The position numbers and the translations under genes were made by a program. Shown piece after piece: positions 31,803-59,112 of a stretch of 64,000 bases of DNA. Every line of letters begins with the position of its first letter. Within the stretch, counting starts at the first letter, position 1. This DNA comes from Streptomyces vietnamensis (GTDB lineage Bacteria; Actinomycetota; Actinomycetes; Streptomycetales; Streptomycetaceae). The notes beneath the pieces are model-generated. The model was not told the origin of the DNA. It ran no database searches and saw only the letters and a program-made list of their open reading frames with translations. The stretch is from NCBI RefSeq assembly GCF_000830005.1, contig NZ_CP010408.1, positions 186,001 through 250,000 on the forward strand. The letters run 5' to 3'.

Positions 31803-31890
31803 TGACGGTTGCCTGATCCGCCCGTACCGAGCTGCCGCATGCTCGGCGGCCGGGCCGAGCGGTGAAGGGGAGCCGGACAGCCCGGACCAC
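31803..31890 (+). promoter_or_regulatory. Recurrent structured intercistronic element, copy A
   Basis: TGACGGTTGCCTGATCCGCC opens the unit, a GC stem follows, and it closes with GGTGAAGGGGAGCCGGACAG then CCCGG. It lies between the WhiB gene and the 31911 gene. Confidence 0.6.
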
Positions 31891-31910
31891 CTGATCCCCT
31901 AGGAGTTGCC

Positions 31911-32471
31911 ATGCGCGACAACACCCACGAGACCACCTGTGCCGCCGTGTTCACCGACGAGGTCCTCTCCCGGGCCGCCGAGCTCGCGCGGGACTCCTAC
32001 CAGCCGGTGTGGACCGGCGCCTCGGGTGAGGAGTCGACCGGCGAGTCGGTCGCCCGCCACCTGGAGGCGGCCGCCGCCCTGCTGGAGACCGACGGCTGGA
32101 CCCGCACCAGCACCTACACCTCGCCCGCGAGCACGAAGCTGCCCGCGATCGAGTCGATGAGCACGCAGGCCATGGTCCGCGAGGTGCTCCGCGCGATCCG
32201 GGAGGAAACCGCCCCCGGCCCGCGCACCCTGTCCGTGGCGTTGGACCACACGGCGCGCGGCGAGGACGGCGACACCGACACCCGCGACGTCGCCTACCAG
32301 GTCCTGAACCGGGTGGTCCGCGCGCTGACCGGCCACGACCAGGCCCACGCCACGGCGTGGACGGAGCGCCTGCACCGCACCCGCGAGGACGTCCTCGACC
32401 TGCTGGCCGCCGGTGCCCGCTTCGCCCGCACCTACGGGCCCGGCGCCACCGCGGCGCCCGAGGCTGCCTGA
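31911..32471 (+). CDS. Hypothetical helical protein
   Basis: A 186-residue acidic, mostly helical protein (ATG with TAGGAG upstream). Segments such as VARHLEAAAALLETDGW, MVREVLRAIREE and VLNRVVRALTGHD suggest a helical bundle similar to the DUF6197-type small plasmid proteins, but no clear family is seen. It is preceded by copy A and followed by copy B of the recurrent intercistronic element. Function unknown. Confidence 0.65.
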   Translation: MRDNTHETTCAAVFTDEVLSRAAELARDSYQPVWTGASGEESTGESVARHLEAAAALLETDGWTRTSTYTSPASTKLPAIESMSTQAMVREVLRAIREETAPGPRTLSVALDHTARGEDGDTDTRDVAYQVLNRVVRALTGHDQAHATAWTERLHRTREDVLDLLAAGARFARTYGPGATAAPEAA

Positions 32472-32531
32472 CCGAGCGGCGGGCAATGAAGCGCCGCCCG
32501 CCAACGGGCCCGCAACACCGTCTGATCTGCT

Positions 32532-32612
32532 CTGGCGGCTGCCTGATCCGCCCGCACCGGCTGCTCACCACGGCGGCCGGGACGGGCGGTGACGGGGAGC
32601 CGGACAGCCCGG
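32532..32612 (+). promoter_or_regulatory. Recurrent structured intercistronic element, copy B
   Basis: GGCGGCTGCCTGATCCGCCC, a GC stem, then GGTGACGGGGAGCCGGACAG and CCCGG. It precedes a 28-residue gene. Confidence 0.65.
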
Positions 32613-32638
32613 CCCATGGAGTACGAGAGGGATTTCCC

Positions 32639-32725
32639 ATGCGCGATCTCATCAAGGCCGTCTCCCAGACCTCGGGCGACGACGAGGAGCAGACCCAGAC
32701 CCGCATTCCGGTCGACGAGGTCTGA
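32639..32725 (+). CDS. 28-residue microprotein between two regulatory elements
   Basis: MRDLIKAVSQTSGDDEEQTQ continues to TRIPVDEV. AGAGGG precedes the ATG, and the stop TGA is also the first codon of element copy C. Being flanked by copies B and C in the same way as larger genes are is the main argument that it is expressed. It is acidic and soluble; no family recognised. It might be a small regulator or a peptide precursor. Confidence 0.5.
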   Translation: MRDLIKAVSQTSGDDEEQTQTRIPVDEV

Positions 32726-32805
32726 CGGCTGCCTGATCCGCCCGCACCGACCGTCGACCCCGGCGGCCGGTGCGGGCGGTGAGGGGGAGCCGGGCAGTCC
32801 GGACC
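32723..32805 (+). promoter_or_regulatory. Recurrent structured intercistronic element, copy C
   Basis: It begins at the TGA stop of the microprotein gene: TGACGGCTGCCTGATCCGCC. CCGCCCGCACC can pair with GGTGCGGGCGG, followed by TGAGGGGGAGCCGGGCAGTC. The inner stem is 11 bp and perfect. Confidence 0.7.
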
Positions 32806-32846
32806 CGTCGGCCTTCGGGCCGGTGTATGCGATGTGAGGAGAGCAT

Positions 32847-33217
32847 GTGACCCAGCCCCAGACGCAGGCCACCCGCCCCAAAATCACCTACACCAAGGCG
32901 ACATCGTCCTGTTTCGCGACGTCGAACGGTTCTGGCTCGGTCTTCCCGGCCACACCTTCGTCGGCCGGGTGGAGCGGTCCTGGACGCACGCCGACACCCG
33001 CAAGGTCCTCTACGACCTGACCGAGCTGAGCGGCAACCGGGCCCGCGCCGGGATCGACCCCGACTACATGCGGCTGCTCCCGGCGACGGACGCGATGCAC
33101 GACATCGACACCGCGCCGCTCAGCGAGCCGGACACCGGGGCGATGACCCCGGCCGCCGTCGCCTGGCTGCGCCAGCACCTCGGGCAGGACAGCAGCGCGC
33201 TGCCCGCCCGTCCCTGA
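32847..33217 (+). pseudogene. Hypothetical gene with a single-base loss near its start
   Basis: GTG 32847 (AGGAG upstream) opens MTQPQTQATRPKITYTK, then the frame fails. One frame over, GDIVLFRDVERFWLGLPGHT continues to 33217 with YDLTELSGNRARAGIDPDYM. Adding one G in AAGGCG at 32895-32900 joins them into a 123-residue protein. The in-frame product would be a small beta-rich protein of unknown role, common on Streptomyces plasmids. This is one of four similar breaks in the window. Confidence 0.6.
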
Positions 33218-33235
33218 CCACCTGCTCACGCAGAC

Positions 33236-33282
33236 GGCCCTCCGAGTCCTCGGCATTCGAGCTGCCGGGGCCTCGGAGGGCC
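33236..33282 (+). terminator. Hairpin after the 33217 gene
   Basis: GGCCCTCCGAG (33236-33246) pairs perfectly with CTCGGAGGGCC (33272-33282) around a 25-base loop, 19 bases after the stop. Confidence 0.6.
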
Positions 33283-33356
33283 TGGTCACGACCCTACCGA
33301 CCCGATGCCGACCGCGGTGGCCTCTTGCACGAGGCGCCGGAAAGAGAGGACACCCC

Positions 33357-36592: not shown

Positions 36593-36593
36593 A

Positions 36594-37229: not shown

Positions 37230-37246
37230 TCACGCAACGTAGTCGA

Positions 37247-37364: not shown

Positions 37365-37374
37365 GAGGGAGCGC

Positions 37375-37932: not shown

Positions 37933-37935
37933 GAG

Positions 37936-39783: not shown

Positions 39784-39804
39784 GAGAAGACGGGAGAGCC
39801 GATC

Positions 39805-44756: not shown

Positions 44757-45995
44757 TTGATCTACTGCGGAATCGACTGGGCGGAACGAACCCACGACGT
44801 CGCCCTGGTCGACGACACCGGCCAGCTGCTCGCCAAACGGCACATCACCGACGACGCGGTCGGCTACAAGATCCTGCTGGAACTGCTCGCCGAGTACGGC
44901 GACAGCGAGGAGAACCCGATCCCGGTAGCGATCGAGACCTCCCGCGGCCTGCTGGTGGCCGTCCTGCGGACCGGCAAGCGCAAGGTGTTCGCGATCAACC
45001 CGATGGCCGCCGCCCGCTACCGAGACCGGCACAGCGTCTCGCGCAAGAAGTCCGACCCCGGCGACGCCCTGGTCCTGGCCAACATCCTCCGCACCGACAT
45101 GCACGCCCACCGGCCCCTGCCCGACGACTCCGACCTCGGCCGCGCGATCACCGTCCTCGCCCGAGCCCAGCAGGACTCTCTCTGGAACAGGCAGCAGCTC
45201 GCCAACCAACTCCGGTCCCTGCTGCGCGAGTACTACCCCGCCGCCCTGGCCGCCTTCACCACCTGGACCAACGGCCTGTGCCGCCCCGAAGCCCGTGAAC
45301 TCCTCAAGACCGCCCCCACCCCGGCCCGGGCCGCGCGGCTGACCCGCACCCAGATCCAGGCCGCGCTCAAGCGAGCCGGCCGCCAGCGCGGCATCGAAGC
45401 CGAGGCCGACCGCCTCCGCGAAGTCTTCCGCGCCGAGTGGGCCCACCAGCCCCCGCTGATCGAGGACGCACTCGGCAAGCAGATGCTCGCCCTCCTCATC
45501 CAACTGGACGCCGCCTGCACCGCAGCCGACCAGCTCGCCGAAGCCGTCGAAGAGACCTTCCCCCAGCACCCGGACGCCGAGATCCTGCTGAGCTTCCCCG
45601 GACTCGGCATCCAGCTCGCCGCCCGCCTCCTGGCAGAGATCGGCGACGACCGCACCCGCTTCGCCGACGCCCGCGGCCTGAAGGCCTACGCCGGCTCCTC
45701 ACCCATCACCCGCGCCTCCGGCAAGAAGTCCGCCATCACCAGACGCTGGGTGAAAAACGACCGCCTCAACCACGCCGGCTACCTCTGGGCCTTCGCCTCC
45801 CTACGGGCATCCACCGGGGCGAACGCCCACTACCGGCGCCGCCGCGAACAAGGCGACTGGCACGCGGCCGCCCAGCGCAACCTCTTCAACCGCATGATCG
45901 GACAGCTCTACCACTGCCTGAAGCAGGGCACTGCCTACGACGAGGCGCTCGCCTTCGGGACCCCTCCTGCCGAGGCTGTTGTCGCTGCGGCTTGA
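44757..45995 (+). CDS. IS110-family recombinase (DEDD transposase)
   Basis: A 412-residue protein starting at TTG with GGGGAGG upstream. The N-terminal RuvC-like DEDD domain shows CGIDWAERTHDVALVD (Asp6), VAIETSRGLLV (Glu) and KKSDPGDALVLANILR (two Asp). The C-terminal Tnp20 domain has LSFPGLGIQLAARLLAEIGD and LKAYAGSSPITRASGKK with the nucleophile serine region. Length and order are normal. It acts with a bridge RNA to recombine element and target. Short flanks on the 3' side are typical: the right end must lie within a few bases of the opposing gene's end at 46001. Confidence 0.93.
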   Translation: MIYCGIDWAERTHDVALVDDTGQLLAKRHITDDAVGYKILLELLAEYGDSEENPIPVAIETSRGLLVAVLRTGKRKVFAINPMAAARYRDRHSVSRKKSDPGDALVLANILRTDMHAHRPLPDDSDLGRAITVLARAQQDSLWNRQQLANQLRSLLREYYPAALAAFTTWTNGLCRPEARELLKTAPTPARAARLTRTQIQAALKRAGRQRGIEAEADRLREVFRAEWAHQPPLIEDALGKQMLALLIQLDAACTAADQLAEAVEETFPQHPDAEILLSFPGLGIQLAARLLAEIGDDRTRFADARGLKAYAGSSPITRASGKKSAITRRWVKNDRLNHAGYLWAFASLRASTGANAHYRRRREQGDWHAAAQRNLFNRMIGQLYHCLKQGTAYDEALAFGTPPAEAVVAAA

Positions 45996-47457: not shown

Positions 47458-47730
47458 GGTGGCTCCGGGGGTACGTGGTGTTTCGGTCACAGGACTATCG
47501 CACTCTCGCGTTGCCCCGAGAGGGGGTATCGGTAAGCCGGTGGATGCCGTGCTCATCGGGGGCGGCGGCCGAGCCCCCGGCCCTGCTGGCGGAGCCCGAC
47601 GAGGGTGACGGCGTCAGGGCACCCATGCGCAGCTCATTCGGATCGCCAAGATGGCCACCTCGGCCGACGAGCGCCGCGGCCACTGACCCATCGATAAGAC
47701 CCCCTGGCAGGTTCCCATGCTTACGAGGAG

Positions 47731-47897
47731 CGCTTGCCCACCCTTCAAAGGGGGCTTGCCCACCGGAGAAGTGCCAGCCGCATACGGCTTGCCCGGCCCG
47801 TCCGCAGGCCCTCTCATCTGACCGGCAGACCAGACGTGGCCTGCGTCTTCGCCCGCCACGTGCCCCAACTGGGTTGTGGGCAAGCCTTTGGGCAAGA
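47731..47897. repeat. GGCTTGCC motif cluster upstream of the clamp-like gene
   Basis: Exact GGCTTGCC at 47753 and 47786 and inverted at 47879; near-matches CGCTTGCCCA at 47731 and GGGCAAGAG at 47890. The motif is the same as that clustered at 27282-27374 upstream of the rep-dnaB operon. Confidence 0.65.
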
Positions 47898-48023
47898 GGG
47901 CCTGAGGAGAGTTCACGGCATCGGATCCGAGAAACGACGCGCCGTACACCGACAACTCCCTTCCCAGAACTCGACTGCGCCCGAGCAAGGCACTGCGGAC
48001 CGCCGCGGCGCCCTTACCCGAGC

Positions 48024-48091
48024 TGACGTCTGCCGGTCCGCCCCGCGTCCTTGACGGCCGCGGGGCGGGCCGGGAGCCGGAACAGCCCCGC
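48024..48091 (+). promoter_or_regulatory. Recurrent structured intercistronic element, copy J
   Basis: TGACGTCTGCC, then GGTCCGCCCCGCG paired with CGCGGGGCGGGCC, then GGGAGCCGGAACAGCCCCG. The clamp-like gene starts 40 bases later. Confidence 0.6.
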
Positions 48092-48130
48092 TCCGCTTCG
48101 TCCCCCTCACCTTTGCGAGGAGACTCACAC

Positions 48131-49222
48131 ATGCCCGTCGCCATCAACGCCCACCAGCTCGGCCGAATGCTCTCCCGGACGGCCCGCCACATCGGGAGCG
48201 AGTTCGTCGAGCCGCTGCACGGCATCCGTCTGGAGGCCGATGACACGCACCTCTACGCGATCGCCTCCGACCGATACACGATCGCCGTCGCCCGCTACCG
48301 TCACCACGGCCTCGACGGCGAGCCCTTCGCCCGCACCGTCCCGGCCTCGGCGCTGCGCTCCCTGCGCGAGTGGACCGACGCCCAGCACGGCAGCGACACC
48401 ATCACCCTCACGACGGCCGAGGGACGCCTGCGGCTCTCCGCCCCGCACGGCGAGCTCGCCTTCGCCGTCACGGACGACCAGAAGTTCTTCGACTGGCGAG
48501 GCGTGCTCCATGACGTGCTGCTGCAAGACCCCGCCGGCAGCGTCCCCTTCCCCGCCCTCGACACCCGGTTCCTCAGCCGTTTCGCTGACGCCGACGACAA
48601 GGTCCGCGTCCGTACCGCCGACGGGCGGGCCACCCTGATCGTTGGCGAGGACTTCCTCGGCGCCCAGACGCCCCTCCGGTCCCGCAGCGAGGGCTTCGGC
48701 GTCCACCTGGCCGAGGACGTCGAGCAGGTCCTCGCCGACTGGACGCCGACGCTCACCGGGGCCAGGCCGGTGGCCATGCCCGACGGCATCCCCGCCGAAC
48801 GCCGGCTCCGTTACGAGGTCACCCAGGACCCCGCGGAGACCGTGGAGATCCTCCTGCGCCAGACCCTGCGCTCGACGTGCGACCTCTTCGAGGAGGACAG
48901 CAATTCCGTGGCCGCTGCGGCCTCGCACGCGTCCTCCGGCGTCATGGCGTGGAGCGCCTACCGGTTCCTCGACGCCCTGCGCACCGCGGACCCGAAGCTC
49001 GCCGCCCAGATCGTCGCCGACGTCGCGGAGCAGCTCGACAGCGGCGAGATCGGCGAGTTCGCCGCGGACGCGGCGTCCCTGGCCGGACACGATCCCGAGA
49101 AGTGGCGGGAGGAGGACGAGGCGCGCTGGGCCCAGCAGCGCGCGGCCGCAGCTCGGAAGGGGGCCACGGCCGACGGCCGGCAGCCGAAGGCGCCGCTCGT
49201 GAGGGACGCCGACGGCTCCTGA
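48131..49222 (+). CDS. DNA polymerase sliding-clamp-like protein
   Basis: A 363-residue protein with GCGAGGAG before the ATG. The first part (VAINAHQLGRMLSRTARHIG, VEPLHGIRLEADDTHLYAIA, SDRYTIAVARY) follows the clamp pattern of helix, GIxLxAxDxxLxxxASDRY. Similar strand/helix patterns recur (FLSRFADADDKVRVRTADGR). The C-terminal 60 residues are helical and Lys/Arg/Ala-rich, unlike DnaN. A beta-clamp homologue for an element-borne polymerase is the best guess; fewer than three full clamp domains may be present. The remote similarity is by eye. Confidence 0.6.
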   Translation: MPVAINAHQLGRMLSRTARHIGSEFVEPLHGIRLEADDTHLYAIASDRYTIAVARYRHHGLDGEPFARTVPASALRSLREWTDAQHGSDTITLTTAEGRLRLSAPHGELAFAVTDDQKFFDWRGVLHDVLLQDPAGSVPFPALDTRFLSRFADADDKVRVRTADGRATLIVGEDFLGAQTPLRSRSEGFGVHLAEDVEQVLADWTPTLTGARPVAMPDGIPAERRLRYEVTQDPAETVEILLRQTLRSTCDLFEEDSNSVAAAASHASSGVMAWSAYRFLDALRTADPKLAAQIVADVAEQLDSGEIGEFAADAASLAGHDPEKWREEDEARWAQQRAAAARKGATADGRQPKAPLVRDADGS

Positions 49223-49340
49223 GGTCCCGTGCCCGAGCACGTTCCGTGTACGCCCGTTGTGCCGGGAGCGGCGCTGACAGACCGGTGATGCGGCGCGGGC
49301 CCGGGGGAGGGGACGCGGAAGGACAGGCGAAACTACCCCC

Positions 49341-49366
49341 TTGAAATGCATTCTATAAGTATGCAT
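49341..49366. promoter_or_regulatory. AT-rich site with two ATGCAT boxes 15 bp apart
   Basis: TTGAAATGCATT begins the site; ATGCAT at 49346 and 49361. The same TTGAAATGCATT start and 15-bp period recur at 58421-58456. The low GC content stands out in this DNA. Confidence 0.6.
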
Positions 49367-49534
49367 ACTTCCAGTATCGCTTAAGGGTGGTTGTGGTCCC
49401 TGAAACCACGCCACCCCACGCCCCGAGGACGAGGACCAAGCCCCTCGGAGCGCCACGCCGGCATCCCCGCCGACCTCGACTCGTACATCCCCCAGCCACG
49501 CCGATGGCCGCCAGACCAGCACGAGGAGATTCCG

Positions 49535-49924
49535 ATGGGCCTGTTCGGACCCAGCAAGAAGTTCTCTCAGATGCTCACCCCTGAGCAGCAGTACTTCGCC
49601 TCCGGCACACACCAGCACACCGAGGAGGACACCCGCCGGCAGTCCGAGGCACGTACGTCCCGCTACCGCAGGCAGCAGCAGCAGGAGACGGAGCGCGCCG
49701 AAACGGAGACCAGGCGCCAGCAGGTGACGCGGGCGGGCACGCTGCGCCGCCGCGGGCGCACCGTGATCCTCGAGGGCGGCTGGCAGTTCGCCACGGACAA
49801 GCTGCCCAAGGGCGACCTGGGCGGGATGAGCTTCCAGGGCGACCGCCTGGGCGACTTGACCGTCAAGGACCTCCATGCGCTCGCGGAGAACCACGGGCCG
49901 AACTGCCGCTGCGGCCTCGGCTGA
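49535..49924 (+). CDS. Hypothetical basic protein
   Basis: A 129-residue protein with ACGAGGAG before the ATG at 49535; a longer frame starting at 49391 has no such site. It reads MGLFGPSKKFSQMLTPEQQY, a Gln/Arg/Glu-rich helical centre, then GRTVILEGGWQFATDKLPKG and a C-terminal HGPNCRCGLG. The C-terminal part is small and beta-like. It lies about 170 bases downstream of the ATGCAT site, which may control it. Confidence 0.6.
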   Translation: MGLFGPSKKFSQMLTPEQQYFASGTHQHTEEDTRRQSEARTSRYRRQQQQETERAETETRRQQVTRAGTLRRRGRTVILEGGWQFATDKLPKGDLGGMSFQGDRLGDLTVKDLHALAENHGPNCRCGLG

Positions 49925-49940
49925 CCCCCGGCGAAGCCTC

Positions 49941-50013
49941 TGTCGGCTGCCTCCCCCGTCCGTTCCGGACCGCGTGCCGGCACGGACGGGGCGAGGGGAG
50001 CCGGTCAGCACCT
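49941..50013 (+). promoter_or_regulatory. Recurrent structured intercistronic element, copy D
   Basis: TGTCGGCTGCCTCCCCCGTC starts the unit; CCCCGTCCGT pairs with ACGGACGGGG, followed by CGAGGGGAGCCGGTCAGC. Same architecture as copies A-C with changed stem bases. Confidence 0.6.
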
Positions 50014-50131
50014 CGACCGCCCGAACCGAGAGCCGCTTCGACAGCGCCCCTTTTCCCTTCCCCGGCCACGTCGACGGCCGCCTGCCGCTCAACGCGGCGA
50101 CCACACCCAGCACTCCGAAGAAGGAGAACCC

Positions 50132-50703
50132 ATGCGCACATCCGTACGCCGCGCCGTCCAGGCACTGATCGAAGGCATCGACATGGTGACCCTGCTGGCA
50201 GGCGCCACCACCGGTGCCTGGGTCGGATACACCTACTACCCGGCCGCCTTCGACACCACCCTGCGGCTGCCCGCCACCGGCACCGTCGCGCTCGGCGCCT
50301 CCTTCGTCTTCAGCACGGTCGTCGACATGGTGTTCGCCCCAGTCCGCCGCCGTCTCGCCCAGGCCGACATCACCGAGGCACGTCAGGCCGCGGAAGCGCG
50401 CGGCGCCCTCGTGCCGGACAGCCTGAGCGAGGCGCTCGACCAGGTCACCGTGGCCACCGAGGAGGACGCCGCCCGCCGCGCGGCTACACCACCGGCGAGG
50501 CCGTCTACTACCTCGCTCCCGCCATGGTCCTGCACTACTGCAGCGACGAGGACGAGCACGGCATCCCCCGGCACCGCTTCACCCTGCTCACCGGTGACGA
50601 CCCGACCCCGGTGCCCATCACCAACGTCGGGCAGATCCACGAGGACCTCGCCCGGCGCGCGGTGGCCCTGACGGCCGGCACTGAGGTGCCGAGCGCGGTC
50701 TGA
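50132..50703 (+). pseudogene. Membrane protein gene with a single-base loss
   Basis: ATG 50132 (AGGAG upstream) opens MRTSVRRAVQALIEGIDMVT and one or two membrane segments (VTLLAGATTGAWVGYTYYPA, VALGASFVFSTVVDMVFAP), then a helical region to DAARRA. There the frame is lost; one frame over, GYTTGEAVYYLAPAMVLHYC runs to 50703. One missing G at GCGCGGCTAC (near 50480) explains it. The joined protein would be about 190 residues. It is followed directly by element copy E. Confidence 0.6.
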
Positions 50704-50770
50704 CGACCCCCTGTGCCGCCCTGCCCCCCTCTTGGAGGGCTGGGGCGGTGCGGAGGACCGGACAGCCCGG
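50701..50770 (+). promoter_or_regulatory. Recurrent structured intercistronic element, copy E
   Basis: It begins at the TGA stop of the previous gene: TGACGACCCCCTGTGCCGCC, stem, then GGGGCGGTGCGGAGGACCGG and ACAGCCCGG. It precedes the gene at 50801. Confidence 0.55.
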
Positions 50771-50800
50771 CCCCGATCCATCGCCCGGAAGGACCCGCCC

Positions 50801-51553
50801 GTGAGCAAGCCCCGCGTCTACTACATGGCGACCCTGCCCGACGGCACCATCAAGGACAGCGCCACTGCCGGCACCCCGGTCAACCTCGCCGACCACATCG
50901 GCCAGGCCATCGACCACCCCAACCCCTGCCAGAACAAGTGGTACGACGAGAGCCCGTTCTCCTACTTCCGCACCTACCACCGCCTCGGGGAGGTCCTGCA
51001 GGACTTCTGGCAGTGGCCCGCCCGCCTGTTCGTCGTCGAACCGCTCGGTGAGACCGGCAACTGGTCGCCCCGCCACTACCGCTACCGGCTCCTGACGCAC
51101 CAGATCCGGGTCGTGGAGGAGATCGACGCCTGGCAGGCCCTCGGCCCCACCGGCCGTGACGTCGCCAAGCTCCTGGCCGAGGACCTGCCCGGCCACGCCT
51201 CCCAATGGGCCCGCGACTACGACGCCGACCCCAAGAGCATGGAGCACCGGATCCGGTTCTGGCGTCTGACCGGCGCCGAAGAGTGCAACAGCGGCATGAA
51301 CGCCGAGATGTGGGTCGGCCCGTTCGCCCGGGACGCCCGCTGCTCCGCCGCACTGCAGACCGTCCGGCGCCGGGCCATCGACACCGCCCTCGACCGGACG
51401 CGCGCCGAGGGCGCCAGCCACGGCGCCCAGCACTACGCCGTGCGCCGCGCCGAGAACCTCGTCAGCGCCGTGCTGATCGGCGACCGGATGGGCGAGTACA
51501 ACCTCCGGCCCCTGCGCGGCACCGACCTCGACCCGGCCCCCGCCACCGTCTGA
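50801..51553 (+). CDS. Hypothetical protein
   Basis: A 250-residue protein from GTG 50801 (GGAAGGA upstream). The sequence (MSKPRVYYMATLPDGTIKDS, SYFRTYHRLGEVLQDFWQWP, NWSPRHYRYRLLTHQIRVVE) is alpha/beta with many aromatic residues and no recognised motif; similar proteins occur repeatedly on Streptomyces plasmids. The C-terminal half is helical (TVRRRAIDTALDRTRAEGAS). It lies between element copies E and F. Confidence 0.65.
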   Translation: MSKPRVYYMATLPDGTIKDSATAGTPVNLADHIGQAIDHPNPCQNKWYDESPFSYFRTYHRLGEVLQDFWQWPARLFVVEPLGETGNWSPRHYRYRLLTHQIRVVEEIDAWQALGPTGRDVAKLLAEDLPGHASQWARDYDADPKSMEHRIRFWRLTGAEECNSGMNAEMWVGPFARDARCSAALQTVRRRAIDTALDRTRAEGASHGAQHYAVRRAENLVSAVLIGDRMGEYNLRPLRGTDLDPAPATV

Positions 51554-51627
51554 CGGCTCCCTGCGCCGCCCCAGCCCCGACCGCGTACAGGGCTGGGGCG
51601 GCGCGGAGGACCGGACAGCCGCCCGGC
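51551..51627 (+). promoter_or_regulatory. Recurrent structured intercistronic element, copy F
   Basis: It begins at the TGA stop of the previous gene: TGACGGCTCCCTGC, then GCGCCGCCCCAGCCC paired with GGGCTGGGGCGGCGC, then GGAGGACCGGACAGCC. The stem is 15 bp and perfect. Confidence 0.7.
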
Positions 51628-51659
51628 CCCGCCACCACCTCACCGACCAGGAGTCCTTC

Positions 51660-52250
51660 GTGACCGCCTTACCGCTTCGCGCCGCTGACCGCCTCGCCCT
51701 CTTCGGCACCCTCCTCAGCGTCTTCGACGCCGTCCACCCGCTGTGCGACCACTGGGTCCAGCCCAGCGACGACGCCCGCCTCAAGGGCCTGCACGGCGAC
51801 CACTACGTCTACGCCGACGGCACCCCCCTCCCCGACGGCGCCGACCCGGCCGACTCCGACGTCCCGGTGTACCGGGCGAGCGTCCTGGGCCGGGCCGCCG
51901 TCTGCCGGCACGTCCGCTCCTACACGACCGTCCAGCTCGCCACCGCCCTCACCATCACCCGCGTCCTCGGGCACCGCGTCCCGCTCCGGGCGCTCCTCGC
52001 CGGCGCCGCCGTCAACGCGGCGACGCACCTGCTGATCGACCGGCGCGAGCCGCTCCTCAAGCTCGCCGACCGGTTCGGCAAGCGCGGCTACATCGACCAC
52101 TGCACCGCCACCCGCGTCGGCCAGGACGGCAAGGTCACGACCGAACTGTTCGGGCCGGGCACTGCACTGATGGAGCTCGACGTTCTCTGCACCAAGTCGG
52201 TGCTGAGCACGCCGTTGCGATCGGGACACTCAAACGCAACAGCCGAGTAG
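51660..52250 (+). CDS. DUF3307-like membrane protein
   Basis: A 196-residue protein from GTG 51660 with CAGGAG upstream. It has the DUF3307 outline: a hydrophobic N-terminal helix with His/Asp (LFGTLLSVFDAVHPLCDHWV then QPSDDARLKGLHG), a CRHVRSYTTVQLATALTI segment and a third hydrophobic segment (LLAGAAVNAATHLLID). His residues at similar places in membrane helices could bind metal. Its role is unknown. It is followed by a strong terminator. Confidence 0.55.
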   Translation: MTALPLRAADRLALFGTLLSVFDAVHPLCDHWVQPSDDARLKGLHGDHYVYADGTPLPDGADPADSDVPVYRASVLGRAAVCRHVRSYTTVQLATALTITRVLGHRVPLRALLAGAAVNAATHLLIDRREPLLKLADRFGKRGYIDHCTATRVGQDGKVTTELFGPGTALMELDVLCTKSVLSTPLRSGHSNATAE

Positions 52251-52253
52251 AGG

Positions 52254-52286: not shown

Positions 52287-52319
52287 TTATATTGGGTCAG
52301 TCAGTAGTGATATTGGCTG

Positions 52320-52514
52320 TTACTCGTGAATGCCCGGAAGTTCCGGGCCGGGCTCTTCGAGGTAGGCGTTTATCTCTGACTGGTGTTCGTACTGCAGATT
52401 GTGCCATTCTTGGGCGAGGCGGCCGTTCCTGTTGGCTGCCTCCTCCATCATGGCTTCCATATCGGAGAGCCGTGCAGCCTGCTCCCGAAGCTGTTCGTAT
52501 TCGTAGTCACTCAC
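52320..52514 (-). CDS. Small coiled-coil protein
   Basis: A 64-residue protein from GTG 52514 with GGAGG upstream. MSDYEYEQLREQAARLSDME is a heptad-type helix, and the C-terminus is acidic (AYLEEPGPELPGIHE). It follows the next small gene on the same strand by 13 bases. Function unknown. Confidence 0.6.
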   Translation of the reverse strand: MSDYEYEQLREQAARLSDMEAMMEEAANRNGRLAQEWHNLQYEHQSEINAYLEEPGPELPGIHE

Positions 52515-52527
52515 GGGTGCGCCTCCG

Positions 52528-52992: not shown

Positions 52993-55401
52993 TTATGGCG
53001 AGAGCGAGCGACGAGGATGAGGAAGTCCCAAGTCCACAGCCCCTACTCGCTGGAAGCGGCTGGTCTGCGCACGTTTGCTCCGCAGGAAGTTGAGCGTCAA
53101 ATCGATCCCTTCGATCTCGCCTTGCCATTCCTCCGCCACGGCCCGCTTGCGGCGGGCCAGGAGGTCCTCCTCGATCTCGTCGAGGCGGGGCAGCATCTTG
53201 GGATTGACGCTGAGCATCGGGCAACGGATGCAGGCGTGCTCGTGCGCGCAGGGGGTTCCGTAGGGTCGGCCGCAGGAGCCGAGTTCGATGCGGCGCTTGT
53301 CGAAGTGTTCCTGGAAGTCAGTCCACTCCTCCGGGGTGGGGTCGCGGTATTCCTCCTTCGGCCGTTCGGCTCGGCGTCGGGCGAGGAACTGGTGGTAGCT
53401 GCTGATCACGTCCTCGTCGAAGACCGCGACGTAACCGCGGGTGGTTCGGATATCGAGATGTCCGAGCAGAGCGGCACCGATGTGGATCGGCAGGCCGTTG
53501 TTGACCAGTTCGGTGGCGAACAGCCTGCGGAAGTCGTGCGGTGTGAATCTGACGCCTTTGAACTGGGGATGTGTCAGCGCGAGTTCGTCGCAGGCCCTGC
53601 CGATCAGGCGCCAGACGGTATTGCCGGACATGCCGCGCTGAGTGCCGCCGTGGAAGCTCTGGAACAGGTAGGGCATGGGCTCGCTCCAGACCCTCTCGTG
53701 GCTGTCGTAACGGACACAGACCGGGACGGTGCCGTGCTCGTTTCGGTGCCGGCGGATGACCTGAGCGATGACGTGGAAGAGCTCGGTGGACATGGGGATG
53801 ATCCGTTCGCGGTCGCTTTTCGACGGGGTCACGACGAGCAGAGCCACGACCTCGCCGTTGGGCCGCTGATACTGCCGGACGCTCAGATGGGTCAGCTCGG
53901 CCAGTTCCTCGGCCCGCAGGCCCGCCAGCCGCAGGGTCTCCACGATGGCCCACCGCCAGAAGGCATAGCCCTCGTCCCTGGAGAGGTGCACGAGCTCACC
54001 GGTGGCGCGGTTGACCGCGCGGACCGGCGGGCGGTTGTGCCGCTGGTCCTTGGTCGAGACGCGGAGCCAGGTAACGCCCTCGGCGGTGAACTCCTCGCCG
54101 TTCTCGACCTCCAGGGCCGCGTCCAGCAGGGTCCGCAGACGATGCCAGCGGTCATTGACGTATTGGGTGAGGATCGGCAGGAGGGGCTGGCGGTCGCGGG
54201 TGCGGTTGGCCATGCGTTCTTGCAGCCGGCGCCGGCGGACCTGGAACCACCGCAGGTCAGCGTCCCGGATCGGGCAGGGAGCGACCCACTTCGCCCAGCG
54301 TTCCGGCTCGGCGGCCGCCCAGCTTTGCAGGTCGAGGTAGAGCGCGCGGACGGCCATCAGCGGCCCGTCGACGTCAAGCCGGGGCTTGCCGTCGGGTAGA
54401 ACCATCAGCCACTCCTTCCACTGCGTGAACGTCTCCTCCGACAGCTTCAGGTCCTTCTGACCGGGGTTGATCTTCTCGATCTGCTTCCAGAAGGTCCTGA
54501 CCAGGAGATTCGTCAGCTGCCGCAGGGTCGAGTAGTCCAGACCCGCCGAGCGGCGGCGGATGTACTCGACCAGCAGGTCTCTGACCTCACCGTTGTGGAG
54601 TTCGTGCCGGTCGACGGCCTCCTCGACAGAGACCTGCCCGCGGGTGACGGCGCCGCGCAGGCTGCGGGGAGCCGACGCGGGGAAGTGGCCCATCTCGTGC
54701 AGGATTGGCCAGGCCAGGGTGCCGGCGAAGCTGGTCTTCTCCCCGGCCAGCTCATGCCTGCGGGACTCGACGGCGTAGTGCAGCAGGGCCTCGGGGGTCA
54801 GGTCCTTCAGGTCGATGCCGAAGATGGTCAACGCGCAGCAGACATCGAACTTGGCCCGGGTCCGGCGGGCCTGGCTCATCGGCAGAAGGTCGGCCCGCCG
54901 GCAGAACTCCTCCAGCAAGGGGTCCTGGGCGACGCCACGGAACCAGGGCGAGTAGTGGAAGAAACGGTTGCAGCGGAAGCCCAGCAGGGTGGGACGTACC
55001 ACCCGCAGGGCGAACGCCTGACCGGCGGCGCAGTTCAGCTTCATGCGAAGGATCCTGCTGTCCCCAGCGGCGTCCCCGACCGGCCGCCCCTCGTCATGGC
55101 CGGAGGCTTCCCACCGCTCCTGCCATGTGTCTCCGGGGAAGGTGGCGAGGTGGCCGAGGAAGGCCCGCATGGAGCCGCGTTGCTTCCATTTCAGGGCCTC
55201 GGACTGGGAGAAGTGATCCGCCGTGACGTTGACGATGTCCTCCGCCGGTGCCGTGCTGAAGTCGCCCAGCGAGCGTGGCGGCCGGGACGGTGGCGGAGGC
55301 GGAGCCGGGAGGATCGCGGTCGGCGTGTAGATGCCGTCCAGGACAGGCGCCTCGGCGTCGTGGCGGCGGACCCGGTTCGTCGTCGGGCCCTTGAGCCGCA
55401 T
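52993..55401 (-). CDS. Large tyrosine recombinase, TnpB-like of Tn554 type
   Basis: An 802-residue protein from the ATG at 55401, 13 bases after the partner recombinase. The catalytic domain shows LRLAGLRAEELAELT (first Arg), FTPHDFRRLFATELV near 622-635 (HxxR), LLGHLDIRTTRGYVAVF with the nucleophile Tyr near 657. The C-terminus has a probable zinc site, PCAHEHACIRCPML, as recalled for Tn554 TnpB-like proteins. A long N-terminal helical region may bind DNA. It probably works with the adjacent 411-residue recombinase for transposition or integration. Confidence 0.88.
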   Translation of the reverse strand: MRLKGPTTNRVRRHDAEAPVLDGIYTPTAILPAPPPPPSRPPRSLGDFSTAPAEDIVNVTADHFSQSEALKWKQRGSMRAFLGHLATFPGDTWQERWEASGHDEGRPVGDAAGDSRILRMKLNCAAGQAFALRVVRPTLLGFRCNRFFHYSPWFRGVAQDPLLEEFCRRADLLPMSQARRTRAKFDVCCALTIFGIDLKDLTPEALLHYAVESRRHELAGEKTSFAGTLAWPILHEMGHFPASAPRSLRGAVTRGQVSVEEAVDRHELHNGEVRDLLVEYIRRRSAGLDYSTLRQLTNLLVRTFWKQIEKINPGQKDLKLSEETFTQWKEWLMVLPDGKPRLDVDGPLMAVRALYLDLQSWAAAEPERWAKWVAPCPIRDADLRWFQVRRRRLQERMANRTRDRQPLLPILTQYVNDRWHRLRTLLDAALEVENGEEFTAEGVTWLRVSTKDQRHNRPPVRAVNRATGELVHLSRDEGYAFWRWAIVETLRLAGLRAEELAELTHLSVRQYQRPNGEVVALLVVTPSKSDRERIIPMSTELFHVIAQVIRRHRNEHGTVPVCVRYDSHERVWSEPMPYLFQSFHGGTQRGMSGNTVWRLIGRACDELALTHPQFKGVRFTPHDFRRLFATELVNNGLPIHIGAALLGHLDIRTTRGYVAVFDEDVISSYHQFLARRRAERPKEEYRDPTPEEWTDFQEHFDKRRIELGSCGRPYGTPCAHEHACIRCPMLSVNPKMLPRLDEIEEDLLARRKRAVAEEWQGEIEGIDLTLNFLRSKRAQTSRFQRVGAVDLGLPHPRRSLSP

Positions 55402-55414
55402 GCTGTTTCCGACC

Positions 55415-56650
55415 TTACTGCCCGGCACCGAACACCGCCTCGATGTCGTCCGCGGCGTACTGGGTCGGCCACGACACCGGCTGAACCGGCCGGGTGTAGT
55501 AGGCCCCGAGCTTGTCCAGCAGGTCGTCCAGGCCGACGGCCGTGTAGAGCTCGGTGGTGCTGATATGCGCGTGCCGCAAGATCGTCTGTACTTCATGCAG
55601 CTTCAGCCCAGGATCGCGGGCCATCCGCTTCGCGGCCGTGTGCCGCAGGTCGTGCAGGGTCCAGTTCGCCCCGAGGGCCTCGCAGGCCCGCTGGAAGATG
55701 CGACGGGCCGCCCAGTAGGTCAGTGGGCGGGGCTTGCCCCGGCGGGCCCGCCAGACCGGCATCCCCTCGGGCGGCAGGCCGTCCTCCTCCAGGTAGGCGG
55801 CCAGGTAGGCCAAGCCCTCCGGGGAGGTCGGGACGGGCTGCCGGGCCCGGGTGCCCTTGGAGATCACCCAGAGCTGGCCTTTGGTCCAGTCGATGTCTCC
55901 GAGGCCGACTCCCAGCAGCTCGGATGCCCGGGAGGCGGAGGCGAGGTAGTTCGACAGCAGGGCCTTGTCCCGGACGCATCTCATCTGTGCGAACAGCTCG
56001 GCCCACTGGTCATCGGGGATGGACCGCGGGTGCCGGACGGGAACCTTCGGCCTCAGCCGGGCCCGCCGGTGCTGCTGGCGGACTTCCAGCGGCGACCGGT
56101 GGGCCAGTGCCGCGCGGCGGGCCGCACTTTCCGGGACCGGGTTGACCAGCGGTCCGCGGCCGAAGGGCTGGTGGAAGGCGTAGAAGCCGTGGATCACGGT
56201 CAGGTTGTGGGCGATTGTCGACGGCGCGTATCCGGCCCGCAGGGTGGGCTTGCCCGTCTTCGGGTTCACGGATCCGGCCGGGTGACTGCCGGGGCGTTGC
56301 CGTTGACGCTGGGGGTTGCGGGCATGCCGCAGCCAGCCGACCAGGGCGGCGGTCTCGGCCTCGGTGACCTGTTCCCATCCCACGTCCAGGGCCCAGAGCA
56401 CGCGGTGCCAGCGCAGCAGGTCGTAGCCGTAGCTCCGGCAGGTCGCCGTACTGGCGTCGCCGAGCATCCGGTCCCGCAGGTAGACGCTGACCGGCTCGAT
56501 CTCACGGCCGGCGGCGTCCACCACCCGCCACGGCAGCGACGGCGTCGTACCCGCGACCACGGCCCCGACCCGGGGCAGCCGTACCCGCCCGTCAATCAGA
56601 TCTCGATGAAGCGAAGGAGTCTCATGCACGATCACATGATCAGAACTCAC
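55415..56650 (-). CDS. Tyrosine recombinase, TnpA-like of Tn554 type
   Basis: A 411-residue protein with an intact catalytic set: Arg241 (SASRASELLGV), Lys265, His333-x-x-Arg336 (HDLRHTAAKRM), His360 and Tyr369 (ILRHAHISTTELYTAV). The core-binding SAM-like domain covers about 55-165. GTG 56650 is used as start, but it lies inside the opposing small gene at 56624-56776, so a later GTG (56635 or 56629) is possible. It is the first gene of a recombinase pair. Confidence 0.88.
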   Translation of the reverse strand: MSSDHVIVHETPSLHRDLIDGRVRLPRVGAVVAGTTPSLPWRVVDAAGREIEPVSVYLRDRMLGDASTATCRSYGYDLLRWHRVLWALDVGWEQVTEAETAALVGWLRHARNPQRQRQRPGSHPAGSVNPKTGKPTLRAGYAPSTIAHNLTVIHGFYAFHQPFGRGPLVNPVPESAARRAALAHRSPLEVRQQHRRARLRPKVPVRHPRSIPDDQWAELFAQMRCVRDKALLSNYLASASRASELLGVGLGDIDWTKGQLWVISKGTRARQPVPTSPEGLAYLAAYLEEDGLPPEGMPVWRARRGKPRPLTYWAARRIFQRACEALGANWTLHDLRHTAAKRMARDPGLKLHEVQTILRHAHISTTELYTAVGLDDLLDKLGAYYTRPVQPVSWPTQYAADDIEAVFGAGQ

Positions 56651-56776: not shown

Positions 56777-57117
56777 ACGCCACCGCCCTTACCCGACTGG
56801 AGCGCGTCCGGGTCTCCGCCGGAATCGCCCAGCTCGCCCTCCAGCAGACCGAGGACGAACCCGCCGGCCTGCCCGACCCGGTGTTCCGCGCCAGGGTGTT
56901 GCGTGAGCTCTTCGAGGAGGCCGACCCCAAGGGCGGCCTCCTCGGCTCGCTCCAGCAGCTGCTCACCGTTGCCTCCCAGGCTGCCGTGCTCGGCCGCGAC
57001 GACGCCGAAGCCGCAGCCTGCGCGCTCGAAGAAGCTGCCGTCTTCGCCGCCAGCTCCCCCGGAATGCTCCTGCACCAGGCGACCTCCACCCTCCACCCGC
57101 AGGGAGAACGACCGTGA
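56773..57117 (+). CDS. Helical hypothetical protein
   Basis: A 114-residue, mostly helical protein (TRLERVRVSAGIAQLALQQT, RARVLRELFEEADPKG, LLGSLQQLLTVASQAAVLG). The ATG overlaps the preceding stop and its own stop overlaps the next GTG, so it is coupled on both sides. No family recognised; probably a small plasmid-maintenance or regulatory protein. Confidence 0.6.
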   Translation: MNATALTRLERVRVSAGIAQLALQQTEDEPAGLPDPVFRARVLRELFEEADPKGGLLGSLQQLLTVASQAAVLGRDDAEAAACALEEAAVFAASSPGMLLHQATSTLHPQGERP

Positions 57118-57689
57118 CCTGCCACTCTTCCCCGCACCCGACGCGGCCGTCCGTACCCGCAGGCTGGAACCAGCGCATTGCCGAGATCACCGCCCGACGC
57201 AGCGCTCTGCCCGACGCCGTTTGGCGTCAGCGGGACCACGACGCCGGAATCGTCGATGACGATGCCGGCCGCCCCATCGCCGTACTCGGCACAAGCGGAG
57301 AAGCCCGCGTACCCGCAGCCGAGTTCATCGCCCGGGCCCCCGCGGACATCGAATGGCTCCTCAGCGCCCTCACCCGGCTCATGGACCGCGTATCAGCCCC
57401 TGCCGACGCGGTCGCCGACAGGGAATCCCCGAGCAGACCAGACAGCTCCTCCGGGTGGGATCAGGCGGCCTTCCGCTGCGGCCGCTGCTTCGCGGTCCGC
57501 GCGGCAGCCACCGAGGACGCCTACCTCCACAGCGTCGGCCTTCACCAAGACGCGCACGCCGCCGTCGACCTTTTCGCCCCGGCCGACCGAGACGTCGTCA
57601 TCCACCTGTTCCGCCTCCTCCACAGCGCGCCTGATCTGGTAGCCGAGGTGCTGGCTCTCCTGGACCAGCCCGGCGGCGGCGGACGGTAA
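57114..57689 (+). CDS. Hypothetical protein with CxxC
   Basis: A 191-residue protein from GTG 57114 (GTGA overlap). Its N-terminal part contains AGWNQRIAEITARRSALPD and a small beta stretch (RPIAVLGTSGEARVPAAEFI), and its centre FRCGRCFAVRAAAT has one Cys pair. The C-terminal half is helical (DVVIHLFRLLHSAPDLVAEV). No known family. It is the third gene of the coupled run. Confidence 0.6.
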   Translation: MTCHSSPHPTRPSVPAGWNQRIAEITARRSALPDAVWRQRDHDAGIVDDDAGRPIAVLGTSGEARVPAAEFIARAPADIEWLLSALTRLMDRVSAPADAVADRESPSRPDSSSGWDQAAFRCGRCFAVRAAATEDAYLHSVGLHQDAHAAVDLFAPADRDVVIHLFRLLHSAPDLVAEVLALLDQPGGGGR

Positions 57690-57807
57690 ACGCGCCCGTC
57701 CGACCCGGAACGACCGCCCCCGTGCCGCCCGGCCCGTCCCGAGGCTGAGGCGGCGCGCCGGCCGGGCAGAGTCCCCGGCCCGTATTTTGACTGGAGTCAG
57801 AACCCGC

Positions 57808-58365
57808 ATGACCATCCACACCGCGGACGCCCGGCACGACCGTGCCCCCGACACGGCGCCGACGCCGATCGCCACTCTCCATCAGGCCGTTGCCGACTTC
57901 GATCCCTGCTCCCGACGACGCGATACCGGCAGCGCCGACGCCTTCAAGGCGGTCCTCACTGCGGACGCCGTCGTGGTCGGCTCCTTCCCCAGCACCCTGG
58001 ACGCCGCGATCGCCCCACGGAGCTGGACCGGCTACCCGCCGGCGGACCACCACCGCTACTGCTACTCCTACGCGGCCTGCGCGGTGACCCGCCTGGGGTC
58101 CGCCGACGGTATCCGCAGCTGGTGGCTGCACTACACCCAGCGCACCGATCAGCTCGGCGAGCACCGGCACATCCTGACCCTGATCGCCCCCTGCGCCTGC
58201 GGAACCTACTTCCACGTGGAGATCCCCGACGAGGACGCGCTCATCGCCATGCTCGACGAGCTCGACACCGCACCCGGAGCTCCCGTCGACTGCAACCACC
58301 GGCTGCGGATCCGCTCCGACAGCAACGCCGACCAGACCCACGACAGCTATGAGCCGCCCTTCTGA
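57808..58365 (+). CDS. Hypothetical protein
   Basis: A 185-residue protein with GGAG 10 bases before the ATG. A small beta-rich domain (SFPSTLDAAIAPRSWTGYPP, CYSYAACAVTRLG, SWWLHYTQRTDQLG) with two Cys pairs (CACG and others) follows a helical start. The C-terminus is hydrophilic. No family recognised. It precedes the second ATGCAT site. Confidence 0.6.
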   Translation: MTIHTADARHDRAPDTAPTPIATLHQAVADFDPCSRRRDTGSADAFKAVLTADAVVVGSFPSTLDAAIAPRSWTGYPPADHHRYCYSYAACAVTRLGSADGIRSWWLHYTQRTDQLGEHRHILTLIAPCACGTYFHVEIPDEDALIAMLDELDTAPGAPVDCNHRLRIRSDSNADQTHDSYEPPF

Positions 58366-58420
58366 GCAGGCCAGGGGGAATGGAGGGGCCCCTGCCCCGC
58401 AGGCGGAGGCCACTTATTTT

Positions 58421-58456
58421 ACGCATTCTCTTGAAATGCATTTCTCGATAATGCAT
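58421..58456. promoter_or_regulatory. AT-rich site with three ATGCAT-type boxes 15 bp apart
   Basis: ACGCAT at 58421, ATGCAT at 58436 and 58451, each 15 bp apart, with TTGAAATGCATT in the middle. Same arrangement as at 49341-49366. Confidence 0.6.
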
Positions 58457-58583
58457 CATGGGTGTGCAGTACCCGGGACGGCCGCCAGGTCGCCAAACTC
58501 CGCCAGCCGCCCCGGGCCTCCCGTCCGCTCCAAGCGAAGCCGAGGGCCAGCGACATCGTCCCCCACCGCGCAAGGAGCACAAA

Positions 58584-58835
58584 GTGACCCCCCGATCCGA
58601 AGAAGCAGACCAGGCACGAGAGGACCTCAGAAAAACCCTCGCCACCGCGAAGGAAGCCAGAGACAAGGCGCTCGAAAACCTCGAGAAGCAGAAGGAAGCC
58701 GTCGAGTCCGAGTACTGGCGCACCGTCCACGCGGCCCTCGACGGGGCCTACCACGGAGCCCAAAAGGACGCCACCGAAGTCCTCGGAGTCACCCGCGACC
58801 ACATCCTCAAGCGCACCAAGAAGTACGCCCCGTAA
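58584..58835 (+). CDS. Small coiled-coil protein with HTH-like tail
   Basis: An 83-residue protein from GTG 58584 (AAGGAG upstream). Residues 1-45 are a heptad helix (EEADQAREDLRKTLATAKEA) and the tail (KDATEVLGVTRDHILKRTKK) resembles an HTH recognition segment. It lies 130 bases downstream of the ATGCAT site and is probably controlled by it. A small DNA-binding protein is possible. Confidence 0.55.
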   Translation: MTPRSEEADQAREDLRKTLATAKEARDKALENLEKQKEAVESEYWRTVHAALDGAYHGAQKDATEVLGVTRDHILKRTKKYAP

Positions 58836-58850
58836 CACCCCGCACCACTG

Positions 58851-58892
58851 CCCGGGCCGGCCGACACCCCACACATCAGCCGGCCGCCCGGG
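58851..58892 (+). terminator. GC-rich hairpin
   Basis: CCCGGGCCGGCCG pairs with CCGGCCGCCCGGG (one bulge) 16 bases after the preceding stop. Confidence 0.55.
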
Positions 58893-59112
58893 CCCCGCGC
58901 CCACCGCCCAGGCCCCCTCCTCCGCCTGAGCCGCGCCCCGCGCCGTCGCCACCAACGTGCGCGCCCATCCCACCGCCGTCGCCACAACGGCCCGCACCAC
59001 CCCCGTTCACGACGCTGCCCTCCCGGCCGTGCCACCCGGCTCGAACTCCCGACGAACCGGGCGGCGCGGGGGACCGGACAGCCCGGTCACACCCACCAGA
59101 ACGGAAACCGTG

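Follow-up and report, generated by a model that had tools for sequence, protein, structure and literature searches.

A dispersed family of intercistronic hairpins in Streptomyces mobile DNA, with two mutually exclusive predicted folds and a possible role as a stop-codon switch

The window analyzed here, i.e., the whole 64-kb stretch at positions 186001-250000 of contig C2 (286,635 bases) of Streptomyces vietnamensis, belongs to a genome of two contigs and 9.15 Mb, the other contig being 8.87 Mb long; C2 is probably a linear plasmid, since the relatives of the region are Streptomyces plasmids, many of which are linear (e.g., SAP1 and pSV2). At 31-42 kb of the window there is a transfer-type operon common to those plasmids, encoding a WhiB-type regulator, a conserved protein of ~124 amino acids (aa), a DUF2637 protein and others, to which the window adds a DUF6197 gene, and the gaps between the genes of this operon are occupied by elements of the hairpin family that is the subject of this text. 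A preliminary description, made from the letters of the window, had listed a dispersed stem-loop family at these and further places, and that listing holds, with elements A, B and C scoring 83-90 bits, elements E, F, D and G being weaker, and a "tail" copy near 59 kb being marginal.

A full copy of the element reads CUGRCRGYUGCC-YGAU-(variable stem P3)-UGAN-GGGGAGCCGGRCAG-N-CCGGNCC, in which the 5' and 3' arms pair as P1 (CUG/CAG), P2 (CGGCU/AGCCG) and then CC/GG, followed by an internal loop (YGAU/UGAN) and by P3, whose length and sequence are highly variable. The composition of the outer stem that had been proposed from a pairing of GGCTGCC is corrected to CUG/CAG plus CGGCU/AGCCG; a point missed earlier is that the 3' block is also able to pair with the CCGG just 3' of itself, forming an alternative hairpin, P4. 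Two covariance models were used for scoring: R1, built from 11 copies (A, B and C included), and R2, built from 106 relatives (106 of 110 matches were kept, with three antisense shadows and one sense copy in locus L050 omitted), whose training set held A, B and C, with D-G and the tail kept out of it. The copies in the window are as follows (fold z, predicted folding relative to shuffled sequence):

31802..31888, + strand: element A, between the WhiB-type gene 31493-31795 and the DUF6197 gene 31911-32471; R1 86.2, R2 82.8 bits (in both training sets).
32532..32615, + strand: element B, 5' of a 28-aa open reading frame (ORF), 32639-32725; R1 85.2, R2 82.8 bits (in both training sets).
32722..32805, + strand: element C, on the stop TGA 32723-32725 of the 28-aa ORF and 5' of the ~124-aa gene; R1 94.8, R2 89.6 bits (in both training sets).
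32722..32733, + strand: 5' arm of element C, CUGACGGCUGCC, the 5' strands of P1 and P2, holding the stop codon.
32738..32779, + strand: variable stem P3 of element C, the part with covariation.
32780..32797, + strand: 3' arm of element C, the UGAN side of the internal loop, then the 3' strands of P2 and P1.
32790..32802, + strand: alternative hairpin P4 of element C, CCGG-GCAGU-CCGG, exclusive with P2.
48023..48093, + strand: element D, divergent, no P4 tail, 5' of gene 48131-49222; R2 32.1 bits, E 1.2e-4; fold z -4.4.
49940..50016, + strand: element E, CTGTC variant, no P4 tail, upstream gene stop at 49924; R2 48.7 bits, E 2.2e-8, outside the training set; fold z -3.1.
50700..50773, + strand: element F, on the stop TGA 50701-50703 of gene 50524-50703, P4 possible; R2 36.5 bits, E 1.2e-5; fold z -2.8.
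51550..51624, + strand: element G, on the stop TGA 51551-51553 of gene 50801-51553; R2 27.2 bits, E 1.5e-3; fold z -4.5.
59020..59089, + strand: marginal 59-kb "tail" copy, its 3' part holding a possible 6-bp P4 (GACCGG-ACAGC-CCGGTC), 5' of the gene at 59113; R2 24.3 bits, E 6.4e-3; fold z -0.6.

Elements A, B and C are near-identical, and the predicted fold energies of A-G range from -43.5 to -63.9 kcal/mol (z from -1.8 for A to -4.5 for G), while the 59-kb copy folds no better than shuffled sequence. With a tolerance of three mismatches, matches to the 3' block are confined to A, B and C (three in 64 kb; shuffled mean 0.09), and those to the 5' block to the same three elements plus, at three mismatches, G (four in 64 kb; shuffled mean 0.01). 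As the antisense shadows of A-C themselves reach 21.5-30.8 bits under R2, D, G and the tail rest mainly on their common ends (CTGACG in D, F and G; CCGGACAGCC in F, G and the tail) and not on their scores. A chance GC hairpin can be rejected for A, B, C and E; D, G and the tail are compatible with chance by score alone. A hairpin similar to G is present in plasmid pFRL1 (L091, the gap after 18671). A start of the unit exactly at the upstream TGA, claimed for C, E and F, was found in C and F, and also in G, with the TGA at nt 2-4 of the element; in E, the upstream gene ends 15 nt earlier. An additional ORF, 47475-48026, would likewise end at the start of element D.

Beyond these copies, R2 gives one further + strand match at 52429 (E 0.09), and outside 31.8-59.1 kb, over the window and 60 kb more of the contig, its best match has an E of 0.7 and lies on the minus strand. 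R1 run on C2 at E <0.01 returned A, B, C, F and one antisense shadow, and on the 8.87-Mb chromosome nothing better than E 0.77, with 150 of 42,526 candidates scored and element E itself missed by this kind of search. A loose first pattern scan gave mostly chance pairs among the matches listed, and a count of exact CTG.C/GG.CAG ends over nine sequences (26 on the gene strand vs. 13 on the other, with three other motif pairs totaling 16 on the gene strand) is not evidence on its own.

The preliminary description had read changing stem bases with kept pairing as the mark of a selected RNA, and in the 106-copy alignment, which was fitted to the structure, both sides have changed in 18 of 29 pairs, all 18 of them in P3 (shuffled mean 8.5, reached in 0 of 500 shuffles); none of 500 shuffles reached any of five covariation measures, and controls slid along the alignment were also lower. 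The result holds when no structural alignment is used at all, i.e., when the first and last seven bases of P3 are paired by position alone: over 70 copies, 474 of 490 cells are Watson-Crick and 7 are G-U, and over the 17 distinct termini 92.4% are paired, vs. a mean of 80.4% and a maximum of 89.9% in 5000 reshufflings, none of which equaled it. Covariation, the absence of which would have spoken against a selected RNA, is thus seen in P3, while P1 is nearly invariant, P2 varies one-sidedly (mostly C-G to U-G), and no double substitutions occur in P1, P2 or P4. The arms stay conserved while P3 diverges, and the 5' side of the internal loop is TGAT or CGAT in 70 of 87 copies that had been found with no condition set on the loop. 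Long forms of ~72-93 nt are found mainly on large plasmids, and short forms of ~62-68 nt on proviruses and on chromosomal elements resembling actinomycete integrative and conjugative elements (AICEs). Rfam 15 holds no family matching the element, with 0 matches in the window above the gathering cut-off and, at E up to 2 in 31700-32900, two microRNA models only, both far below it.

A second fold is also possible. The CCGG and CC just 3' of the hairpin are conserved although they lie outside it; these can pair with the CCGG and GG of the 3' arm, giving P4, and, as both use the 3' arm, P1/P2 and P4 are mutually exclusive. The number of Gs in the 3' arm and of Cs in the tail go together over 108 copies (1/1 twice, 2/2 in 87, 3/3 in nine, 2/3 twice, and eight without such a tail), with a Fisher value of 3.5e-11 for the 98 rows having two or three of each, albeit among related sequences. 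In the two one-G copies (L098 and L110) the bulge of the arm is lost, making P1/P2 perfect, and the tail is altered with P4 still possible. Such coordinated length changes in P4 probably represent at least two events, the related copies not being independent. In predicted folding with nothing blocked, pairing between the two arms is seen in 84 of 88 copies; if the first 14 nt are barred from pairing, 85 of the 88 form P4, vs. 142 of 440 with shuffled tails (a looser count); in a wider set, with other thresholds, these figures are 96 of 108 for the arm pairing and 107 of 108 for P4 when blocked. Both of the exclusive pairings appear to be maintained.

Counting same-strand genes around 87 distinct copies (90 were found, of which one was lost to a folding filter and two were duplicates), a gene ends within 400 nt upstream in 84 and another starts downstream in 81; the contexts of unannotated loci, as well as the folded gaps mentioned below, come from a simple custom gene caller that may miss small genes. 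The element is thus mostly intergenic in this set, weaker genome matches lying outside it, and a family confined to coding sequence, the outcome that would have undone the proposal, is not what was seen. The upstream stop is the UGA at nt 2-4 in 43 of 84 copies and is no more than 15 nt away from the element in 75 of them, and in contigs from IMG/VR it is at nt 2-4 in 20 of the 21 copies having an upstream gene (22 copies in total). The next start follows at a median of 30 nt (interquartile range 25-47; 81 copies). The genes themselves are diverse: the 81 downstream proteins, mostly small, fall into 30 clusters with no similarity detectable between them, and the 106 model matches are flanked by 32 upstream and 34 downstream families.

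The gaps of such plasmids fold far beyond chance: 167 gaps of 60-220 nt from 13 plasmid loci have a mean folding z of -2.66, vs. -0.91 for 29 chromosomal gaps of the window's genome (p 1e-4), and, by eye, most of the listed gaps in four annotated relatives appear to hold a GC-rich hairpin near the stop, mostly of another sequence. Structured gaps would thus be the wider habit, of which the family looks like the dispersed representative with a conserved sequence. Another hairpin that is conserved, mostly ending in GGACCGGACAG and having the family's CCGGACAG end, occurs in seven plasmids (L021 31761-31799; L022 to 31926; L023 to 31866; L025 to 30862; L026 32628-32675; L027 30787-30826; L028 30898-30947), standing directly 5' of a gene annotated as an RRQRL zinc-binding protein in L021, L023 and L027; with its GGACCGGACAGG-like end, it may be a cousin of the family. 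A different gap hairpin, the copies of which are alike by eye, stands 5' of a gene for a GGDEF protein, always in the same place, in L087 (24048-24182), L089 (23534-23624), L090 (22986-23076) and L091 (22656-22747).

The earlier suggestion that the element was shared across the mobile element in the window turned out to be an understatement, as the family spans Streptomyces plasmids, AICE-like chromosomal elements and proviruses. A BLAST search with element C plus 40 nt of its downstream flank found relatives in 134 of 72,556 plasmid records, all labeled Streptomyces or [Kitasatospora], the element being covered in all 60 matches listed of those 134; the short form, used as a query, found 42 plasmid records, and among annotated phages two element queries found no match. 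One 28-kb circular plasmid record (with a 14-kb repeat) also has the element. Among 150 Streptomyces genomes, the window's own included, a match is present in 60 at E 0.01 and in 30 at E 1e-6, and a set of 197 genomes from the whole order, overlapping in part with the first set, gives 46 with a match at 1e-4, all of them Streptomyces (one of six genera), in searches whose filters were stricter than those of the whole-genome search that had missed element E; one named contig, L076, belongs to Streptantibioticus. A strong copy is present in 15 of the 18 loci that were collected through a neighboring protein, the exceptions being L071, L077 and L078. The chromosomal loci L113, L112 and L115 look like AICEs, the first by its context (GntR/UTRA, DUF2637, a weak FtsK match and DUF6257) and the other two by a similar gene order as read, whereas L114 is a provirus with a terminase large subunit, tail fiber and helicase. 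In IMG/VR contigs, which may include misjudged integrative elements, two patterns gave 20 and 24 stretches, among which 32 matches score E 1e-4 or better. A replicon or genome can hold several copies, with three strong ones in the window plasmid and seven at E 1.4e-10 or better in genome G149.

Junctions bearing the element are often also seams at which small genes are gained and lost. Gene orders differ among the plasmids, e.g., DUF5999-EL-D124, DUF5999-EL-MRGD-EL-D124, DUF5999-EL-MRNL-EL-D124 and DUF5999-EL-MRGD-EL-DUF6197 (ad hoc labels, EL being the element). In comparisons of empty and filled sites, covering regions of <6000 bases and drawn from the pairings listed (30 of 289), the gained units consist of a gene plus an element, with their edges at element boundaries; when L079 (empty) is set against L042 (filled), the left-hand homology stops no more than 2 nt from where the first element ends, and it begins again exactly where the second one starts. 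Over 31 loci, 5 of 21 clean clustered gains fall at elements, which make up 0.54% of the sequence, but these figures overstate the true enrichment, since a gain is likely to be tolerated mainly where two genes meet. The arms carry a related trace: the likeness of 5' arms is 0.932 when only the upstream gene is shared vs. 0.868 when only the downstream gene is, a contrast reached in 1 of 500 label swaps, and that of 3' arms is 0.919 and 0.927 in those two cases and 0.855 when neither gene is shared. The pattern fits recombination inside the elements, which may have been homologous or otherwise.

Structures of this general kind have been described before. Ribosome termination structures (RTS; Chemla et al. 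2020, PMC7518266) are stable mRNA structures directly after the stop codon in gaps of >25 nt, reported for 18-66% of genes and suggested to control re-initiation, and in a synthetic Escherichia coli operon a structure right after the stop lowered re-initiation, for which the authors propose an insulator role (PMC7518266). The element resembles them in having a stable structure directly after the stop (within 15 nt in most copies, and with the z values given above for A-G) and a sufficiently long gap (an element of ~62-93 nt plus the median 30 nt); it differs in that RTS are a generic folding signal, whereas here a single family, recognizable by sequence and having conserved arms, an internal loop and an exclusive second hairpin, recurs between unrelated genes of mobile DNA. 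It can be regarded, by inference from this likeness, as a sequence-specific relative of the generic structure. In its placement the element recalls the start-associated sequences (SAS) and extended SAS (ESAS) of cluster K mycobacteriophages, the latter being dispersed imperfect inverted repeats 5' of start codons, nearly all in one orientation, within which the stop of the upstream gene may fall (PMC3203893). As described there, however, ESAS have 17-bp arms with a spacer of 4-13 bp in most sites and are tied to an SAS at the ribosome-binding-site position (PMC3203893); the present element measures ~62-93 nt, has a variable inner stem and a P4 tail, and ends ~30 nt before the start. The element is, then, functionally like RTS and placed like ESAS, and a strict member of neither; searches of the open-licence PubMed Central literature turned up no paper whose title or abstract describes it.

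The reading we prefer, tentatively and with some way to go before it could be called probable, is that the elements are transcribed, cis-acting intercistronic RNA hairpins that act as a stop-codon switch at the handover between cistrons in operons of Streptomyces mobile DNA; set against the attenuator, processing site and protein-binding leader offered earlier, the evidence favors a switch dependent on translation termination, a bound protein or RNA processing being less likely. Given the footprint of a ribosome, one that terminates at nt 2-4 should occupy about the length of the 12-nt 5' arm. By masking that arm, it would free the 3' arm so that P4 could form, whereas with the upstream gene untranslated P1, P2 and P3 would close as one long hairpin. 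The element would thereby be a ribosome-termination structure with a built-in sensor, insulating the downstream cistron from unwanted re-initiation and scaling or gating entry at the start codon ~30 nt further on, and, the junction being self-contained, gene-plus-element units might be gained or lost by recombination between copies with the operon left intact. Known translational coupling by RNA unfolding (PMC12548453) offers a parallel, in that a hairpin is kept from forming by the ribosome that terminates there, with an effect on the next cistron; in the cases described there, the hairpins cover or adjoin the downstream ribosome-binding site, whereas neither fold of the present element includes the start, and many junctions have the same device.

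Several observations weigh against this switch. In 41 of 84 copies the stop lies elsewhere than at nt 2-4, the next commonest site being 6 nt upstream (12 copies), and a ribosome terminating that far back would extend no further than nt 1 of the element; a pairing tail is absent from E, D and some relatives; and the downstream start is exposed in both folds, which makes the regulatory output a guess. It is these points, i.e., the stop lying slightly upstream in about half of the copies and the guessed direction of the output, that keep the reading tentative. No substitution covariation was found for P4 in 106 copies, with shuffles equaling it in 500 of 500, nor does any P2 pair have substitutions on both sides (one P2 pair is A-C in 11 of 106 copies), so that P2 and P4 are supported by conservation, G-U pairs and coordinated length changes. 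An excess of G-U over A-C would mark the transcribed strand; G-U and A-C occur 85 and 87 times over 29 pairs, 81 and 32 times without three often-unpaired pairs (one P2 pair supplying 28 of the 81), and 7 and 3 times in the anchored P3 test (p 0.34). The arms, moreover, are conserved in sequence beyond what a plain insulator needs, and a bound factor could account for this. Finally, 16 of the 21 clustered gains lie away from elements. A wider claim would make the element a portable "operon adaptor", i.e., a host-read RNA switch that senses upstream translation via the terminating ribosome, sets entry into the next cistron and doubles as a cassette-exchange seam among the plasmids, integrative elements and proviruses of one genus; taken as a whole, this claim is doubtful.

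An alternative is an RNA operator, in which the arms and the YGAU/UGAN loop are bound in trans by a protein or small RNA, with the genes downstream of all copies regulated together. Arm and loop sequences kept beyond the need of pairing, and several copies per replicon or genome, speak for it, but the downstream genes have no detectable similarity and the hosts are diverse (large plasmids, the 28-kb circular record, AICE-like elements and proviruses), with no common candidate regulator noticed among them, although no systematic search was made; we consider it unlikely, if slightly less so than the explanations that follow.

Long near-perfect stems in polycistronic gaps would also suit RNA processing or stability, the GC stem being cut by RNase III or blocking exonucleases; P4, located just 5' of the downstream cistron, would protect the message of that cistron at its newly made 5' end. 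As this leaves the stop codon at nt 2-4 and the conservation of arm sequence unexplained, it seems a poor prospect. No better is a further explanation, i.e., that these are ordinary ribosome-termination hairpins acting as plain insulators, alike through recent recombinational spread, with P4 having no role. Stop-proximal structures are indeed widespread in bacteria (PMC7518266), unrelated GC-rich hairpins stand near the stop in other gaps of the same operons (by eye and by folding), and P4 has no substitution covariation; against this, the arms are kept while P3 diverges, and the tail is conserved outside the hairpin with its length tracking the 3' arm.

The seams raise another explanation, that of a folded single-stranded recombination site like the attC of integrons, with gene and element moved as a cassette by a hairpin-reading recombinase. 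Integron attC sites come in gene-plus-site units with the gene's stop at the site, and have complementary conserved ends with extra bases, an unpaired center and a variable paired tip, with core sites GTTRRRY/RYYYAAC at the ends. The anatomy of the element resembles this, the gained units have the expected composition and edges, the share of gains at elements exceeds their share of the sequence, and 5' arms track the upstream gene. The same pattern, however, would come from homologous recombination between copies; the consensus ends, CTGRCRGYTGCC and GGGGAGCCGGRCAG, have no such core by reading, no pattern search having been run; no recombinase is named in the small circular element plasmid (26,920 of 28,193 bases, most genes unnamed); and P4, the spacing to the start codon and the unrelated hairpins of other gaps have neither a counterpart in attC nor an explanation by it, all of which makes this very improbable. 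A DNA site for a dimeric regulator was considered as well, since P4 is in part a palindrome; the spacing of its outer GG/CC pairs, however, is unequal on the two sides (3 vs. 1 nt), as would be expected of an RNA more than of a DNA site. Lastly, a transcription terminator or attenuator, to which GC-rich intergenic hairpins and a two-state fold like that of classical attenuators might point, is the least credible, since no + strand terminator-like site occurs in 31700-33000 or 47900-51800 (one lies on the minus strand, 47954-47940), runs of T within 30 nt reach a length of 4 at most in the 108 copies, in which no stem is followed by a U-tract, and the next start, ~30 nt off, leaves little promoter room after the hairpin, so that the downstream gene probably needs read-through; reduction of the family to simple unrelated terminators, a possible outcome foreseen at the start, is thus not borne out.

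The passage of ribosomes from cistron to cistron is an open question, and natural structures at stop codons have been described, in the account of PMC7518266, mainly in statistical terms. The question becomes testable with a defined example such as this one, which is repeated, conserved in sequence and predicted to have two competing folds. If gene-plus-junction units truly travel together, this would provide a route for small genes into long operons with expression undisturbed, and if the operon-adaptor claim were true, any gene carrying the element would be correctly regulated on arrival.

A few features of the neighborhood deserve mention. The 28-aa ORF 32639-32725, a candidate small gene with elements B and C on its two sides, forms a minimal cassette-like unit, and the ~124-aa gene 3' of C shows an apparent frame change near its start relative to its relatives (~32850-32970), its start call being uncertain. 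An IS110-family transposase gene lies at 44757-45995, within the element-bearing region, and a sigma-70-like promoter match (consensus match only, 9/12) on the + strand at 49341-49369, ~0.6 kb before E. The gene 48131-49222, downstream of D, had been taken from reading for a sliding clamp, which comparison with one annotated relative did not support. Between G and the 59-kb copy, at 52993-56524 on the minus strand, are two adjoining genes of the phage-integrase family (tyrosine recombinases) of 802 and 369 aa, and pairs of site-specific integrases are annotated near the same transfer-type operon in L022 and L028. Short proteins annotated as "RNase adapter RapZ" are encoded on carrier plasmids (L021 40116-40556, L023 37887-38342 and L091 27542-27961) and are candidates for a possible RNA-binding partner, and the carrier plasmid of S. 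californicus has an annotated type I-E CRISPR-Cas set (L028 1301-10899).

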